From an uncultured Acidimicrobiales bacterium (GTDB lineage: Bacteria; Actinomycetota; Acidimicrobiia; Acidimicrobiales; SZUA-35): a stretch of DNA of 64,000 bases. Position numbers and translations under genes: made by a program. The DNA lies in the NCBI GenBank assembly GCA_938002965.1, contig CALKZY010000007.1:61539-125538 (forward strand). Reading direction: 5' to 3'. The notes under the pieces were generated by a model. It worked only from the letters and a program-made list of their open reading frames with translations, was not told the DNA's origin and did not search any database. Of this stretch, positions 46,916 through 54,510 are shown piece after piece. Numbering within the stretch: position 1 is the stretch's first letter; every line of letters starts with the position of its first letter.

Positions 46916-48124
46916 ATGGTCGCAGACAGAGTCACCGAAGACGAAATCATGGGGGTTTTGCGTGGTGTGATCGACCCGGAGTTGGGCAGCAACATCGTTG
47001 AGCTTGGCATGGCCAAGGGAGCGAAGGTGGCTGACGACGGGTCGGTGGTGGTGAAGATCGCCCTCACAACGGCCGGATGCCCGTTGCGGGCTCAGATTCA
47101 ACGAGACACCAAGACCAGGATTGCCTCACTCCCGGGCGTGACCAAGGTATCGATCGACTGGACCGAGTTATCTCCGGATGAAAAGGCTGCGGCGATGGCG
47201 GTGGCCAGGAAAAACGCTGCCGACCGTGCCCCTGAGACCGCCATTCCGGCTACGGCGCGGGTCCTGGCTATTGCCTCGGGCAAGGGTGGTGTCGGCAAGT
47301 CTTCGGTGACCGCCAACCTGGCTGTGGCTTTGGCTGCTCAGGGGCGAAACGTTGGGGTGATCGATGCTGACATCTGGGGTTTCTCCATTCCCCGCATGCT
47401 GGGCCTGGACGGCCGGCTGGGGGGTGGCACCGACGGCGAACGGGCTGTCATCGAGCCGCTGTCGATGTCAGTCCCAACCGAAGAAGGATTGGCCACCGGG
47501 CGTCTTGACGTCGTGTCGATGGGTTTCCTGGTGGAAGACGAGGAGTCGGCTCTGTTATGGCGCGGTCTAATGTTGAACCGGGCCGTCCAGCACTTCCTTG
47601 AAGATGTGGCGTGGGATGACGACCTCGAGTACTTGTTGATTGACATGCCACCGGGCACCGGTGATGTGGCCATGGGCTTGGCCCGCATGATCCCCAGGGC
47701 TGAGATGTTGGTGGTCACGACGCCGGCGACCGGTGCTCAGAAAGTGGCCGCACGGGCGGTCTCGATGGCCCGAAAGTCGTACCTGCGAGTAGCCGGCGTC
47801 ATTGAGAACATGTCGGTGTTCGTGGCTCCGGACGGTCAACGCTTCGAGCTGTTCGGCAGCGGTGGGGGTCAGGCGCTGGCCGACGAAGCCGGTGTTGAGC
47901 TGATCGGGCGGATTCCAATAGAACCAGAGGTTTCAGCCGGTGGTGACGCCGGAGAACCCGTGGCTCTTGGCCCGGGATCGCCGGCGGCGGAGGTGTTCAT
48001 CGAGATTGCTCAGCGAATCGTGACTGACATCGCTCCACCGGTTGAGATGGAAAGCTGTACCGCCCGAATGTTCGACCTGGTGGACGCCGCGCTGGCCGAG
48101 TACGACTCGACAAACAGCGATTGA
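46916..48124 (+). CDS. mrp: Mrp/NBP35-type P-loop ATPase with N-terminal DUF59 domain
   Basis: GVIDPELGSNIVELGM, ASGKGGVGKSSVTANLAVAL, DMPPGTGDVAM. Confidence 0.93.
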   Translation: MVADRVTEDEIMGVLRGVIDPELGSNIVELGMAKGAKVADDGSVVVKIALTTAGCPLRAQIQRDTKTRIASLPGVTKVSIDWTELSPDEKAAAMAVARKNAADRAPETAIPATARVLAIASGKGGVGKSSVTANLAVALAAQGRNVGVIDADIWGFSIPRMLGLDGRLGGGTDGERAVIEPLSMSVPTEEGLATGRLDVVSMGFLVEDEESALLWRGLMLNRAVQHFLEDVAWDDDLEYLLIDMPPGTGDVAMGLARMIPRAEMLVVTTPATGAQKVAARAVSMARKSYLRVAGVIENMSVFVAPDGQRFELFGSGGGQALADEAGVELIGRIPIEPEVSAGGDAGEPVALGPGSPAAEVFIEIAQRIVTDIAPPVEMESCTARMFDLVDAALAEYDSTNSD

Positions 48125-48143: not shown

Positions 48144-48896
48144 TTAGGCTTCGGCCGGTGTCTGAGTTGGTTTGGGGGCAGTCGATCGTTTAACGGTGAG
48201 CTTCTCGTTTACGAATCTTGATGCCGGAACCAAGACGGTCATCTGAGTCTCGGGATCTTCGAGCTCAATGGTCGTTGGGTGAACAGCGGTGACTTTGCCC
48301 TGCACATCGTCGAACATGACGATGTCACCTTCGGAGACCAGTCGACGCATCGCCCGGTTGGAGGCCACCTCTCGAGCCACGCTGTGACCGCCCAGGCCGA
48401 CCAGCAAGGTCAAGGTGGCGGCTACACCGAAGAAGATGGCGGCCAAGCCCATGTTGACCACTTCGGTGTCGATACCGATTGTGCTGACTGCCAGCAGAAT
48501 GGCGAGGGTGTAAATCAGCGACCGGACCACCATGTGGACCTGTCGCTCGATGTTGAGCGGCATTCGAGCCGTGGCCTGCGAGACGGCGGTGGCGGCGAAT
48601 GAAGCCAAGACGCGGGCAACGATGATGATGATCGCCGCAGTCAGAATCTTGGGAAAGAAGGCGATGGCGTCTTTGGGTAGCTGGTCAAGCGCCGTGGGCT
48701 GAATGAAGCCAAGGGCGGCGATCAGACCGCCAACCATGAAGAAGGAAAAGACCAACTGGCTGATGGGTTTGGCCACGTTCTGGATGGCCTCTCCCTTGGC
48801 CGAAGCCACCAGACGGTGGACGAGGCGTGAGGCGATCATCCCCAACACAATTCCGGCGACGATTGCTACCAGCGCCATAAGCCAACTATTCATCAT
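48144..48896 (-). CDS. MscS/TM-helix-type membrane protein
   Basis: TM helices followed by AREVASNRAMRRLVSEGDIVMFDDVQGKVTAVHPTTIELEDPE, a short beta-domain-like segment. Confidence 0.72.
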   Translation of the reverse strand: MMNSWLMALVAIVAGIVLGMIASRLVHRLVASAKGEAIQNVAKPISQLVFSFFMVGGLIAALGFIQPTALDQLPKDAIAFFPKILTAAIIIIVARVLASFAATAVSQATARMPLNIERQVHMVVRSLIYTLAILLAVSTIGIDTEVVNMGLAAIFFGVAATLTLLVGLGGHSVAREVASNRAMRRLVSEGDIVMFDDVQGKVTAVHPTTIELEDPETQMTVLVPASRFVNEKLTVKRSTAPKPTQTPAEA

Positions 48897-49260
48897 TCTC
48901 CTCCATCAGCAGCAATCGGGAAGTCTCCACGCCCGCCCCGAAGAGATCCGATACGACATCGAACATTACCCGCGAATCGAGGCGGTCCGTCACTTTCTGT
49001 TCCAGCCGTTCAGTCAAATCGTCTGGCGAAGCGAGGACTGTCCCCAACGCCTGTTGGATACTCGATGCCTGTGTCTGGTTGTCGTTGCCGTCTTCGTGAA
49101 TCGACATTGATTCGATGGCCGAAGCACATCGCTCACAGGTTGCGATGTGCTGTTCGACGCGAGCAGTAGCCACCACCTCTTTGTCGGTGGAAGCTTCGTC
49201 ATCGAGCCACCGCTGCAGTGCCCGCTTGTTCGGGTGGCGAAAGCGTGCCACTACTCCCAC
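48886..49260 (-). CDS. Zinc-binding anti-sigma factor-like protein
   Basis: VEQHIATCERCASAI fits HxxxCxxC; overlaps the sigma gene upstream. Confidence 0.78.
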   Translation of the reverse strand: MGVVARFRHPNKRALQRWLDDEASTDKEVVATARVEQHIATCERCASAIESMSIHEDGNDNQTQASSIQQALGTVLASPDDLTERLEQKVTDRLDSRVMFDVVSDLFGAGVETSRLLLMEENDE

Positions 49261-50189
49261 TCTCTCAACGCTGCGCCCAACTTGCGGCGGGCTCTGAGCA
49301 GCCGTGTTTTGACAGTGGGTAAGGGCACATCGAGGACTTCGCTTATCTCGTCGTAGCTGAGGCCTTCCAGCTCTCTAAGCACCACAATCGACCGCGAAAG
49401 GTCATCAAGCAAATCGAGGGCCTCGACGAAGTCGTCCATGACGATCTCACCTTGAACCCGTGACTCGACCGAGCGCTCCACCTTGATGGGGGTTTCGGGC
49501 ATGTCGTGAGGGTCAATTACCACCGCTCGACGTCGTCGAATGGTCGAGATAGCTGTGTTGTGGGTGATTCGCAGCACCCACCCTCTCAGCGACGAGTCAC
49601 CGCGAAAGGTGGGGAGTGCTAGCCAGGCTTTGATCAGCGTTTCCTGGGCGATGTCTTCGGCCAAGGATTTGTCGCGGACGACGGAGAGGGCAAGGCGGTA
49701 GATGGCGTCGCCGTGTTCCACCACGAGTTGATGGAGTTCCTCCGGGTCGGCCGATTTCTCATCGCCGCCGGATCCCGCCGATCCCTGTTTGTGGGCTCGG
49801 CGGTCGGCTAACGAGATTCGCTCTACTGTATCGGCGGGTTGGCTGGTGTCGGCTGTCGCCCCGCCAGACATGGCAGTCATCAGATTTTGAAGGAAGCGAG
49901 GAATCCGCCAACCGAAGTCCAGTGGTGCGTCGGTTACGACAAGTGGCAGGGGCAAGGCAGACGCTGCGGCCATCATTGATGGTATGGCCAACTGGAGATT
50001 TGGGAGGCTCGGGCCGTCGACGCGAAATCGCCGAATAGCCGGGGCCAAGGCAAGATCCTCAGCAGTTGGTGCCCTGACGCCTGCACGCTGATCAAGGCCT
50101 TCTTGGTTCATACGCCCGGATGGAATTCTCATTTGACTCGCCTCAGATGTGGCCCCGAATCGCCACAACCCATTGTGCGCTGATACCAA
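49251..50189 (-). CDS. ECF-type RNA polymerase sigma factor (long or mis-started N-terminus)
   Basis: HGDAIYRLALSVVRDKSLAEDIAQETLIKAWLALPTFRGDSSLRGWVLRITHN...LREL EGLSYDEISEVLDVPLPTVKTRLLRARR. Confidence 0.9.
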   Translation of the reverse strand: MVSAHNGLWRFGATSEASQMRIPSGRMNQEGLDQRAGVRAPTAEDLALAPAIRRFRVDGPSLPNLQLAIPSMMAAASALPLPLVVTDAPLDFGWRIPRFLQNLMTAMSGGATADTSQPADTVERISLADRRAHKQGSAGSGGDEKSADPEELHQLVVEHGDAIYRLALSVVRDKSLAEDIAQETLIKAWLALPTFRGDSSLRGWVLRITHNTAISTIRRRRAVVIDPHDMPETPIKVERSVESRVQGEIVMDDFVEALDLLDDLSRSIVVLRELEGLSYDEISEVLDVPLPTVKTRLLRARRKLGAALREWE

Positions 50190-50397
50190 GCCAGTTGCTC
50201 CTTGGACTCTCAGGTACGTCCAGGAGGCTGTTTAGCCCCATTTTCGGACCGTCCCACAAACGGTAGGGGGATTTCGAGTAAAACACGAGGTGGGCGGTCA
50301 ATCAGCAGCAGGATAGAAATTTCGCCGAATTCTCGCGACCAACTCCGCTGCTGGGCCGTCTGTCTTTTGCTTCCCACAAGAAAGTGAGAAAGAACAA

Positions 50398-51141
50398 ATG
50401 TTTCTTCAAGGTGACGCTGTCGATGAGGGTATTCAAATCGTCGATTCGCTTCAGAGCGGAATCACCGGGTTCTTCGATCAGCTCTTCGGGTTTCTCCCCA
50501 ACCTGATCGGCTTCCTGGCAATTCTGTTTATCGGGTGGTTTGTCGCCCGATTCATCGCACGGATCGTGCGGCGACTGTTCAAGGCCATCAATCTTGACTA
50601 CTACCTCGATCGTGCTGGAATCGGTGCTCCACTGGAGCGTGCCGGATATGCAGACAGCGGTCGATTCGTAGCCAAGATCCTCTACTACATGCTGATGCTG
50701 ATCGTACTCAAGCTGGCCTTCGGGGCACTTGGTATCGACGCTCTCAATGAGCCGTTCGATCAGTTGATTGCCTGGATTCCCAAGGCTCTCGTGGCCCTGG
50801 TCCTGATCGTCATCGGTGGCATCGTTGCCAACGTCGTCAAGGATCTGGTTCGTGGAGTTACCGCCGGTCAGGGCTACAGCAATCTTGCTGTGAACGCCGC
50901 CGGTATCGGTGTCTGGTTGATCTTCGGCCTGGCCGCTCTTGACCAGGCCGGCATTGCCGGTGACATGGTCGACACGCTGACCAACGCCATCTTTGCCTCC
51001 CTGAGCGCCATCCTCATCATCAAGTACGGTGTGGGCGGAATCTGGGCAGCTCGAGATCGCTTCTGGCCGTCGGTTTACGACACTGTTGCATCAAACCGTC
51101 CTACCTCTGGGTCCGCTCCGGCGCCCCAGCGACAGGCCTAG
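50398..51141 (+). CDS. Conserved TM-helix (MscS-associated) membrane protein
   Basis: FLPNLIGFLAILFIGWFVARFIARIVRRLF and repeated amphipathic TM-helix units. Confidence 0.75.
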   Translation: MFLQGDAVDEGIQIVDSLQSGITGFFDQLFGFLPNLIGFLAILFIGWFVARFIARIVRRLFKAINLDYYLDRAGIGAPLERAGYADSGRFVAKILYYMLMLIVLKLAFGALGIDALNEPFDQLIAWIPKALVALVLIVIGGIVANVVKDLVRGVTAGQGYSNLAVNAAGIGVWLIFGLAALDQAGIAGDMVDTLTNAIFASLSAILIIKYGVGGIWAARDRFWPSVYDTVASNRPTSGSAPAPQRQA

Positions 51142-51336: not shown

Positions 51337-52362
51337 CTACAGCGAGTCGAGCACCTTGAGGGCGTCTACCGCTTCGCCGATGTCGAAGACATTGTCGATG
51401 CGGTCGATGACCGTGCCTCCACCGTCGAGCAGGAAAAGTGACGGTTCGAAGTGAAGGCCCATCGCTTGAACCGTGGGCGAAACTTCGATACCCGGAGCGG
51501 TGAAGTTCCCACCGAACTCAAGAGCGTTGGCGTACACCTCGGCGTGGATGATGTCCAAGCCGGGAACTTCTTCAGCCGCCTCCATCAACGTGTCGACCAC
51601 CGGGCCGCAGTATGCGGTGGAGCAGTAGGCCGGCGTGGCTACCAAGATGGCACTGGGGCGTCCGGCGGCCACGATGTCGGCGTAGCTGTTCTCATGGAAG
51701 GGGCACGGGCCCTCGATCCGGGTACAGAGCTGGTCGACGCCGTCAGGATTGTCGAACGTGGGTGTGTCGAACACCTCAAGGGTCGAGCCGATGATAGGAA
51801 TGAAGACCTCGTTGGCATCGAACGCCTGAACCGGCAGTGTCGATTCGACCCCGCGGATGCTGACAACCAGGTCGTAGATACCGGGTTCGGGCATGGTGAA
51901 TCGGGCCGGGTAGTACCGAAGAAGGTCGGCGTGTTGATGATCGTCGGCTGTTCCCTCGACGTGATCGTGCGCCACCAACCGGCCGACCATGTCGACCGAG
52001 TCGAGTTCCTCGTCGCCTGACATCAAGGCAACGGTTATGGTTTCGTCTTCGTCGGGAAGGGCAGTTTGATCTCTGACCTCAGGGCTGGGAGCGATGATGG
52101 CGAACGGGATTCGTTGTTCCATGCCGGCCACCAGCACCCTGTCGGGCGAGAACATGGCAGCCACGTTGGCGGGTTCCAGTGGTGTGTCCGACCCGCAGGC
52201 GGCCAACAGCGGAGCGCTGATGGCGGTAAAGGCGGCGCCTCGTGCCACCCACCCAGCCCCGACCCCGACCGCACCGGATGCTGATCGGCTCAGGAAGCTG
52301 CGTCGGGTCATGGGGGCTTGAGAGAACAGGTCGTCCGAGGTATGGACTGGCTCGGTTGGCAT
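51337..52362 (-). CDS. Putative Tat-exported lipoprotein with thioredoxin/SCO-like domain
   Basis: MTRRSFLSR twin-arginine, LLAACGS lipobox, PAYCSTAYCGPVVDTL cysteine motif. Confidence 0.68.
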   Translation of the reverse strand: MPTEPVHTSDDLFSQAPMTRRSFLSRSASGAVGVGAGWVARGAAFTAISAPLLAACGSDTPLEPANVAAMFSPDRVLVAGMEQRIPFAIIAPSPEVRDQTALPDEDETITVALMSGDEELDSVDMVGRLVAHDHVEGTADDHQHADLLRYYPARFTMPEPGIYDLVVSIRGVESTLPVQAFDANEVFIPIIGSTLEVFDTPTFDNPDGVDQLCTRIEGPCPFHENSYADIVAAGRPSAILVATPAYCSTAYCGPVVDTLMEAAEEVPGLDIIHAEVYANALEFGGNFTAPGIEVSPTVQAMGLHFEPSLFLLDGGGTVIDRIDNVFDIGEAVDALKVLDSL

Positions 52363-52397: not shown

Positions 52398-54083
52398 ATG
52401 AACGTGTTGCAGATCACAGTCAACGACCAGACCATCGATGTTGACGAGCCTCAGGGTTCGCTTCTGGACACGTTGCGCTATCAGCTCGGTCTGACATCGG
52501 TTAAGGATGGCTGCAGCCCCCAAGGCCAGTGCGGCTGCTGCACAGTGCTGGTCGACGGGCAGGCTCGGGTCTCGTGTGTCACCCCGGTTCGGCGGGTACG
52601 CGGCCGCTCCGTGACGACGGTGGAAGGCTTGGACACAGACCGCCGGGAGGCGTGGGCCGGCCGGTTCTGCGACACAGGTGCCAGTCAATGCGGATTTTGT
52701 ACACCGGGAATCGTGATGCGGCTTGAGGCTTTGGCCCGGGCCGTCGACGGTGCCGACAGTTCTGCCCTTCCCGATCTGGATCAAGATGAGGTCGAGCAGG
52801 GCCTCCTCGCTCATCTGTGCCGCTGTACCGGCTGGCAGACGATCGTGGAGGCCGCGTGTGAACATGAGACCTCGGTGTCGTTGGCATCGCCGGTCGCCGA
52901 TCGTCAATGGTCTGCTGCTGCCCAGAGGGCGTCACTGGAAGGTCGTACGGGTCAAGTTGTCAGCGCGGAAATACCGGTCGGCCGCGGTGGTTTCGCCGCC
53001 GACACCGCCCCGGCGGACTGCCTGGTCGCGGTGACTGACGGCGATGGGCAGTGGGTGGTAGGCGAATCGCTGTACGAGGCCCGCCTAGTGGCCGCCAAAG
53101 TCCAGGGTCGGAGAACGACCGTTGCGCCGTCATGGCCGATCGCCGTTCCCGACGGCCAATGGGTGTCAACGTTACGAACCACATGGGTCGACGGTGCCTA
53201 CTTGGAGACCGATGCCTCGTGGTGCGAGCCAGGCGGGGTTCCGTCGCCGGTGGAGGCCAACGGCGGAGCATTCGGGGCCAAATGGTCAACTGCTGACGTT
53301 GAGTCGTCCTCGCTTGACCAGCCGGATGTGGTGGGAGTTTCCGCCGCCGCCCGCCGGCTGGCCGACAGCTATGGCCGCCCGGTTCTTGCCTTGGCCTCGC
53401 GCGAGGATGTAACCCGGTTCGGTCTGAAACGTCCGCCGGTGGCAGGCGGAGTATCCGCCGATGGAACCGGAGTGCTGCGAGTCGCTCGTACCCCAGGTGC
53501 GGCCGATGCCATCGCCGCCGGTCTGGCAGCCAATCCACACTTGGCTGAGGGCGTCGCCCTGTCGATTGAGGAGGTCGATGTGGTTGGCCCTCCGACATCG
53601 GTTCGGGCCCGGGCCAGCAGTTGGGCCGAAGCCGTGGTGTTGTTGTCGGCGCTTTCGCCGGGTTCTTCGCCAGGAACGGCCGGTGACAACTCAACGACGG
53701 TGGTCCACTCTCCCGACGGTGCCGAAGCTCGGGTGTCGGTGGACATGGGAGATGGCGAGACCAATCCGTCAATTGACGTGTCGGTTAGTTGCGGGCCGGT
53801 TCTCGACGCTGTGGTTCTGCGGTCGTATTGCATCGGGGCCGCCCACATGGCGTGGTCGTGGCTGACCAGCGAGTCGCTGGCCGTCGACGCTGAAGGCAAC
53901 GTGCACGACCTCACTGTTCGCAGCCTCGGTGTGTTGCGCGCCGTCGACACACCGAAGGTCGCCGTCGAGCTGGTGGAGGGTGAAGGGGAACCGGTCAACG
54001 GTTCCGATGCAGTGTTCGCCGCGGTGGCCGCTGCCGGCTGGCGAGCGCATGGTTTCCCCGAGGCCTGGCCGATCGGTCTCTAG
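52398..54083 (+). CDS. [2Fe-2S]-binding protein fused to a reduced xanthine-dehydrogenase molybdopterin-subunit-like region
   Basis: CSPQGQCGCCTV, CGFCTPG, CRCTGW; later GGAFGAK, LASREDVTRFGLKRPP and SVSCGPVLDAVVLRSYCIGAAHMAWSWLTSESL resemble eroded XDH blocks. Confidence 0.8.
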   Translation: MNVLQITVNDQTIDVDEPQGSLLDTLRYQLGLTSVKDGCSPQGQCGCCTVLVDGQARVSCVTPVRRVRGRSVTTVEGLDTDRREAWAGRFCDTGASQCGFCTPGIVMRLEALARAVDGADSSALPDLDQDEVEQGLLAHLCRCTGWQTIVEAACEHETSVSLASPVADRQWSAAAQRASLEGRTGQVVSAEIPVGRGGFAADTAPADCLVAVTDGDGQWVVGESLYEARLVAAKVQGRRTTVAPSWPIAVPDGQWVSTLRTTWVDGAYLETDASWCEPGGVPSPVEANGGAFGAKWSTADVESSSLDQPDVVGVSAAARRLADSYGRPVLALASREDVTRFGLKRPPVAGGVSADGTGVLRVARTPGAADAIAAGLAANPHLAEGVALSIEEVDVVGPPTSVRARASSWAEAVVLLSALSPGSSPGTAGDNSTTVVHSPDGAEARVSVDMGDGETNPSIDVSVSCGPVLDAVVLRSYCIGAAHMAWSWLTSESLAVDAEGNVHDLTVRSLGVLRAVDTPKVAVELVEGEGEPVNGSDAVFAAVAAAGWRAHGFPEAWPIGL

Positions 54084-54156
54084 CCGCCGGTATCAGTCCC
54101 GGTCGACCCAAGCTGCGAGAGGCGTCCCACGGGGTTCTTTCGCTAGAGTCCCTAAC

Positions 54157-54510
54157 GTGTCTACTCCAGTTGGTCCCTATACCCCCATTCTCCCAGCCGG
54201 TCAGTGGCGTGTTGCTTCCGGGCAGGTCGGCATCGTCGACGGTGCCCTTGTCGATGACACGCTGGCCGGTCAGCTACACCAGGCTCTGGCCAACCTGAAG
54301 GCGGTATTGGCCAGCGGGGGGGCGGAGTTGACCGATGTGATTAAGACGACCGTGTTTCTGATCTCCATGGATGACTACGCCGAGATGAACGCCATCTACA
54401 TCGACTTCTTCGGTGATCACCGGCCGGCTCGCTCGGCGGTAGCGGTGGCTGAGCTTCCACTGGGTGCCAGAGTCGAGATTGAGGCCTGGGCTCACTTGGG
54501 TGACGGCTGA
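54157..54510 (+). CDS. RidA/YjgF family protein
   Basis: TPVGPYTPILPAGQWRVASGQVGI, TTVFLISMDDYAEMNAIYIDFFGDHRPARSAVAV, GARVEIEAWA; GTG start. Confidence 0.9.
   Translation: MSTPVGPYTPILPAGQWRVASGQVGIVDGALVDDTLAGQLHQALANLKAVLASGGAELTDVIKTTVFLISMDDYAEMNAIYIDFFGDHRPARSAVAVAELPLGARVEIEAWAHLGDG

Follow-up and report, generated by a model that had tools for sequence, protein, structure and literature searches.

The gene at 52398..54083 on the forward strand of our window (the whole stretch of 64,000 nt that was analysed) raises the question of whether a protein that joins an iron-sulphur module to a strongly shortened molybdenum cofactor (Moco) domain is still a molybdenum enzyme. It forms one intact ORF of 561 aa with an ATG start and no internal stops, and this frame, its family of orthologs and an AlphaFold2 model support its description as a pseudo-molybdoenzyme, in which a two-[2Fe-2S] module is followed by the reduced shell of a Moco domain. 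The first-pass annotation had read the locus as a complete two-cluster module fused in one frame to a shrunken xanthine dehydrogenase (XDH)-like domain, with the FAD module missing, and each of these points was confirmed for the 561-aa protein. The iron-sulphur module occupies residues 1–153 (52398..52856, forward strand), is recognized by Pfam as Fer2 (21.8 bits) and Fer2_2 (65.8 bits), and matches the solved structures 1rm6_C and 1sij. Its cluster ligands C39, C45, C48 and C60, together with C98, C101, C141 and C143, are each invariant in 58/58 aligned orthologs; the eight cysteines, the Fer2/Fer2_2 arrangement and the two [2Fe-2S] sites match those of xanthine oxidase family enzymes, as far as the ligands tell. 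The same region resembles the small Fe-S subunits of the CoxS/XdhC/HcrC type (for example 1rm6_C); the fold alignment shows it to be 32–39% identical to solved chains. Those subunits pair with separate Moco (and usually also FAD) subunits, whereas none was detected in ten carriers of the 561-aa family.

A full-length paralog is encoded in the source genome itself (L021:1933-4572:-, genome G000, contig C2), a single-chain Fe-S/Moco protein of 880 aa that scores 758 bits against TIGR03311, under the cut-off of 830. The 561-aa protein reaches 131 bits against this Se_dep_XDH model (cut-off 830), in its Fe-S part only, and is not a member. Profile-profile alignment (hhalign) to the full-length homolog nevertheless gave an E-value of 2e-58 across the alignable part, and two parts of the eroded half aligned alone gave ∼1e-10 and 2e-11; thus the eroded XDH blocks noticed earlier reflect true homology and not chance. 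Structure prediction, which had been proposed as a check, returned a confident fold (pLDDT 90.9, pTM 0.93), and the top two Foldseek matches over the whole length were the aldehyde oxidoreductases 1dgj (E 2e-18, TMq 0.58) and 1sij (E 1e-17, TMq 0.57). Homology in both halves and the aldehyde oxidoreductase fold place the protein in the single-chain Fe-S/Moco lineage, which speaks of ancestry and not of function. It has the same domain order as TIGR03311-type proteins such as L021, in which no FAD module separates the Fe-S part from the Moco part, and its first cluster motif shows the identical C-x5-C spacing. On the other hand, L021 has 880 aa and members of the reduced family have 498–589 aa, and the full-length proteins contain all checked Moco motifs as well as the GVGE motif, whereas the reduced family has GGxFGxK only. 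The Desulfovibrio aldehyde oxidoreductases (1dgj and 1sij) have the single-chain architecture in common with it, but they bind Moco and have the catalytic Glu, and the reduced family lacks those motifs (TMq 0.58, TMt 0.38). Hence, as judged from alignments and a predicted model, the protein has the ancestry and the fold of the xanthine oxidase family but fails on the features that define its enzymes.

By our own accounting against L021, ∼80 residues of the hammerhead, ∼45 around the GGQG loop and ∼195 comprising the end of MoCoBD_1 and most of MoCoBD_2 are missing, ∼320 in total. Conservation and hhalign place a remnant of the a/b hammerhead and the start of MoCoBD_1 at residues ∼181–275 (52938..53222, forward strand, as are all segments of this half), where E181, Q186, R238, W263, E270 and W275 are invariant among orthologs; neither PF01315 (a/b hammerhead) nor PF02738 matches the 561-aa protein, so that the intact domains of the family are not recognized in it. 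NGGAFGAK follows at residues 288–295 (53259..53282) and is the sole checked Moco-site motif that is kept. The segment REDVTRFGLKRPP at residues 335–347 (53400..53438) aligns with REESLLIHAKRHP of the full-length homolog, of which it appears to be a vestige, and R335, E336, K344, R345, P346 and P347 are invariant. At residues 397–412 (53586..53633), GPPTSVRARASSWAEA is the eroded counterpart of CGAFRGFGANQA, an equivalence judged by eye; R405 and E411 are invariant here and FRGFG is absent from 58/58 orthologs. Read in the same way, basal copies show LRAFGLAEQAVLVEG at the FRGFG loop, which looks like substitution rather than deletion. Only the C-terminal end of MoCoBD_2 survives, at residues 444–519 (53727..53954), which correspond to profile positions 207–283 (the last 77) with a weak score of 18 bits, below cut-off; one basal ortholog exceeds the cut-off in this region, with 28.6 bits. 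Finally, EGEGEPVNGSDAVFAAVAAAGW at residues 527–548 (53976..54041) aligns with the region in which full-length homologs have the catalytic-Glu GVGE motif, and the motif itself is missing: GVGE is found in 0/58 orthologs, and the aligned stretch reads NGSDAVF.

Five motifs that we take to line the Moco site of the family were checked (GGQG, GGxFGxK, FRGFG, xGQG and GSRGT). Among the 58 aligned orthologs, GGQG, FRGFG and xGQG each occur in none, FGxKE in two, a GSRGT-like motif in four and GGxFGxK in all 58, and 14 additional divergent copies likewise do not have the lost motifs. Both the Moco-site motif set and the catalytic-Glu GVGE of the xanthine oxidase family are therefore wanting, and the conservation of Moco-contact residues and of the catalytic Glu, which the first-pass annotation had advised checking, failed for four of five motifs and for GVGE. 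Its three XDH blocks are real and can be specified further: all are remnants of the Moco domain, and the preceding a/b hammerhead is largely gone. Cys 276 and Cys 478 are also conserved among orthologs.

The family is present in 96 of 296 genomes of the class Acidimicrobiia, and the gene was counted in 52 of 61 relatives, some of these copies being fragments at contig ends. In 297 genomes sampled across the phylum, no ortholog was found outside the class, where matches were confined to the Fe-S portion of longer proteins. The best 80 loci from 84,980 species genomes lie mostly on records with acidimicrobial or actinobacterial titles; three orthologs (L052, L095 and L101) come from records named Terriglobia and Bifidobacterium breve, which probably reflects errors of binning or labelling. 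In a midpoint-rooted tree of the Fe-S module, one branch (support 98/92) separates the reduced family from full-length homologs, and a copy from the outgroup order (L124) adjoins this branch. This is consistent with a single origin, which probably preceded the split of the acidimicrobial orders. The open frame is kept in nearly all carriers, identity between orthologs is ∼58% in the Moco-like half and 63% in the Fe-S half, and dN/dS of the Moco-like half was 0.06–0.24 in 16 close pairs. The loss of Moco-site features is uniform, old and maintained. A literature search for a known Moco-less family gave nothing relevant, which does not show that none exists.

Ten carriers from ten families (G017, G039, G044, G045, G046, G047, G054, G058, G269 and G076) bear on whether the protein depends on molybdenum hydroxylases. 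The sole Fer2_2 protein detected in each is the member of the reduced family; no hammerhead domain (PF01315) was found in any of the ten, and neither FAD_binding_5 (PF00941) nor XdhC_C, which marks the XdhC/CoxI maturation chaperone, exceeded its cut-off. For PF02738 in eight of the ten and for PF20256 in all of them, there was either no match or a weak match consistent with the reduced protein itself; the reduced protein of G076 clears the PF20256 cut-off by 1.6 bits. Some of these genomes are MAGs, and the absences are at risk from incompleteness (G046 is 70% complete). A split protein, with the missing half encoded elsewhere, was rejected on the basis of these ten carriers, in which PF20256 finds nothing beyond matches that fit the protein itself.

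We consider it reasonably probable, at about two chances in three, that the protein is a Moco-free pseudo-molybdoenzyme whose clusters move or sense electrons and whose shell provides a docking or ligand site. This corresponds to the repurposed electron-transfer or binding protein that the first-pass annotation offered as its second option, and it is favoured by the loss of motifs alongside invariant clusters in 58 orthologs, by purifying selection on the reduced half, and by ten carriers in which neither an XDH-type partner nor XdhC was detected. The ancestor would have been a TIGR03311-type (Se_dep_XDH-like) hydroxylase with its Fe-S and Moco domains in a single chain. It would have become a cytoplasmic two-[2Fe-2S] electron-transfer protein when internal deletions of ∼320 residues in total and accompanying substitutions did away with the Moco site and the catalytic Glu, while what was left of the shell stayed folded and under selection. 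Both clusters are most likely loaded, judging from their invariant ligands, and may shuttle or sense electrons, and the shell could serve as a surface for docking or ligand recognition towards a partner other than a molybdenum hydroxylase, an FAD subunit or XdhC, independence from these three being shown by genome content. Persistence across the class, even where molybdenum enzymes of this type were not detected, suggests that evolution has given a new role to a former molybdenum enzyme. A counter-point is that GGxFGxK and several Moco-domain residues are invariant, which also fits the binding of another cofactor. The ten carriers indicate that an old scaffold has apparently lost the metal site while retaining the electron wire, with upkeep across the class; if confirmed, this would mean that in the xanthine oxidase family the Fe-S half can live independently. 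Such genes should not be annotated as xanthine dehydrogenases, and several of the carriers have genomic backgrounds clean enough to ask about the partner.

The neighbourhood of the gene is conserved as well. A separate ORF directly downstream, 73 nt away, encodes RidA, a Rid family imine/enamine deaminase (54157..54510, forward strand, GTG start; PF01042, 110 bits), as the first-pass annotation had noted. The gene that follows is RidA in 73 of 80 loci, and among 84 loci where a RidA gene of the same strand lies downstream (a few of them duplicates) the gap is ≤150 nt in 79 and the genes overlap by 4 nt in five. Divergently oriented, with its start codon 35 nt from that of the 561-aa gene, lies a putative exported lipoprotein with a thioredoxin-fold C-terminal domain (51337..52362, reverse strand), which has RR and LAAC near its N-terminus and in which C213, C220, H223, C247, C252 and H273 are invariant; it has no Pfam or NCBIfam match, and its profile found nothing significant among the sequences of solved structures. 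An Mrp/ApbC-type Fe-S carrier, a P-loop ATPase that also has an Fe-S assembly domain (46916..48124, forward strand), belongs to the same class-wide cluster, and its gene order invites the conjecture that it loads the clusters of the reduced protein. Of 109 loci, 84 have the lipoprotein nearby and 65 have Mrp, and the arrangement Mrp, lipoprotein, reduced gene and RidA recurs in the class beyond the order of the source genome (G076; L170, L175, L177 and L178). In the source genus, a sigma factor, an anti-sigma-like gene and two MscS-like genes stand between Mrp and the lipoprotein (48144-51141), a block that is arranged otherwise in other lineages. In four genomes without the reduced gene (G025, G151, G205 and G247) the lipoprotein adjoins RidA, which favours clean loss of the gene. 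RidA persists there, and hence is linked to the reduced gene, not dependent on it; the earlier suggestion that RidA hints at reactive-imine chemistry holds in so far as RidA directly follows the gene in most loci, but its persistence removes any specific pointer to imine chemistry by the reduced protein.

This pairing bears on the reading that survives best beside the preferred one, in which the shell is a new catalytic or sensing domain whose old pocket now binds another cofactor or a small molecule, with electrons exchanged between this domain and the clusters. The Moco-like half has more invariant polar residues (E181, Q186, R238, E270, K295, R335, E336, K344, R345, T400, R405, E411, H483, E492, T506 and R508) than a passive spacer would need, Cys 276 and Cys 478 are conserved, and the RidA pairing is operon-like. 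However, many of these invariant residues are common to full-length homologs and may just hold the fold, no cofactor motif was recognised, and RidA persists without the reduced protein; we regard this reading as possible, yet doubtful. Held tentatively, and with slightly less doubt, is the proposal of a class-ancestral, Moco-free descendant of the xanthine oxidase family whose pocket was rebuilt for another ligand or cofactor and coupled to the clusters, which would make it a new family of redox enzymes or sensors.

It is considerably less probable that the protein serves as an accessory pseudo-subunit of the full-length single-chain molybdenum hydroxylase, or of other XDH-family enzymes elsewhere in the genome. 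The source genome does encode the 880-aa paralog L021 (758 bits against TIGR03311), and many carriers encode several molybdenum hydroxylases. Against this, the ten carriers with no detected molybdenum hydroxylase contradict an obligate role, and six genomes have full-length-type matches without an ortholog of the reduced gene (G129, G151, G183, G205, G216 and G247). An obligate partnership with the full-length paralog is ruled out by such genome content.

A minimal yet active molybdenum hydroxylase, the first option of the earlier annotation, is more improbable still. GGxFGxK is kept in 58/58 orthologs and Moco biosynthesis exists in the order, but the catalytic-Glu motif, like four of those of the Moco site, is lost or can no longer be recognised, MoCoBD_2 is down to the last 77 profile positions, and ten carriers have no XdhC_C over cut-off. 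The presence of moa genes, suggested as a further check, could be established and does not discriminate either way: MoaC is found in nearly all genomes of the order, and Moco supply is thus uninformative on Moco use. A decaying pseudogene or an assembly artefact, which the large internal losses against the full-length homolog and two disrupted copies might suggest, is rejected with near certainty, given the intact ORF, frames that are open in nearly all carriers, dN/dS far under 1 in both halves and a confident predicted fold. The two disrupted copies, one with an in-frame TAG in a relative (G020:C144:5942-7510) and one split into two ORFs (L083), are instances of recent decay or assembly errors.
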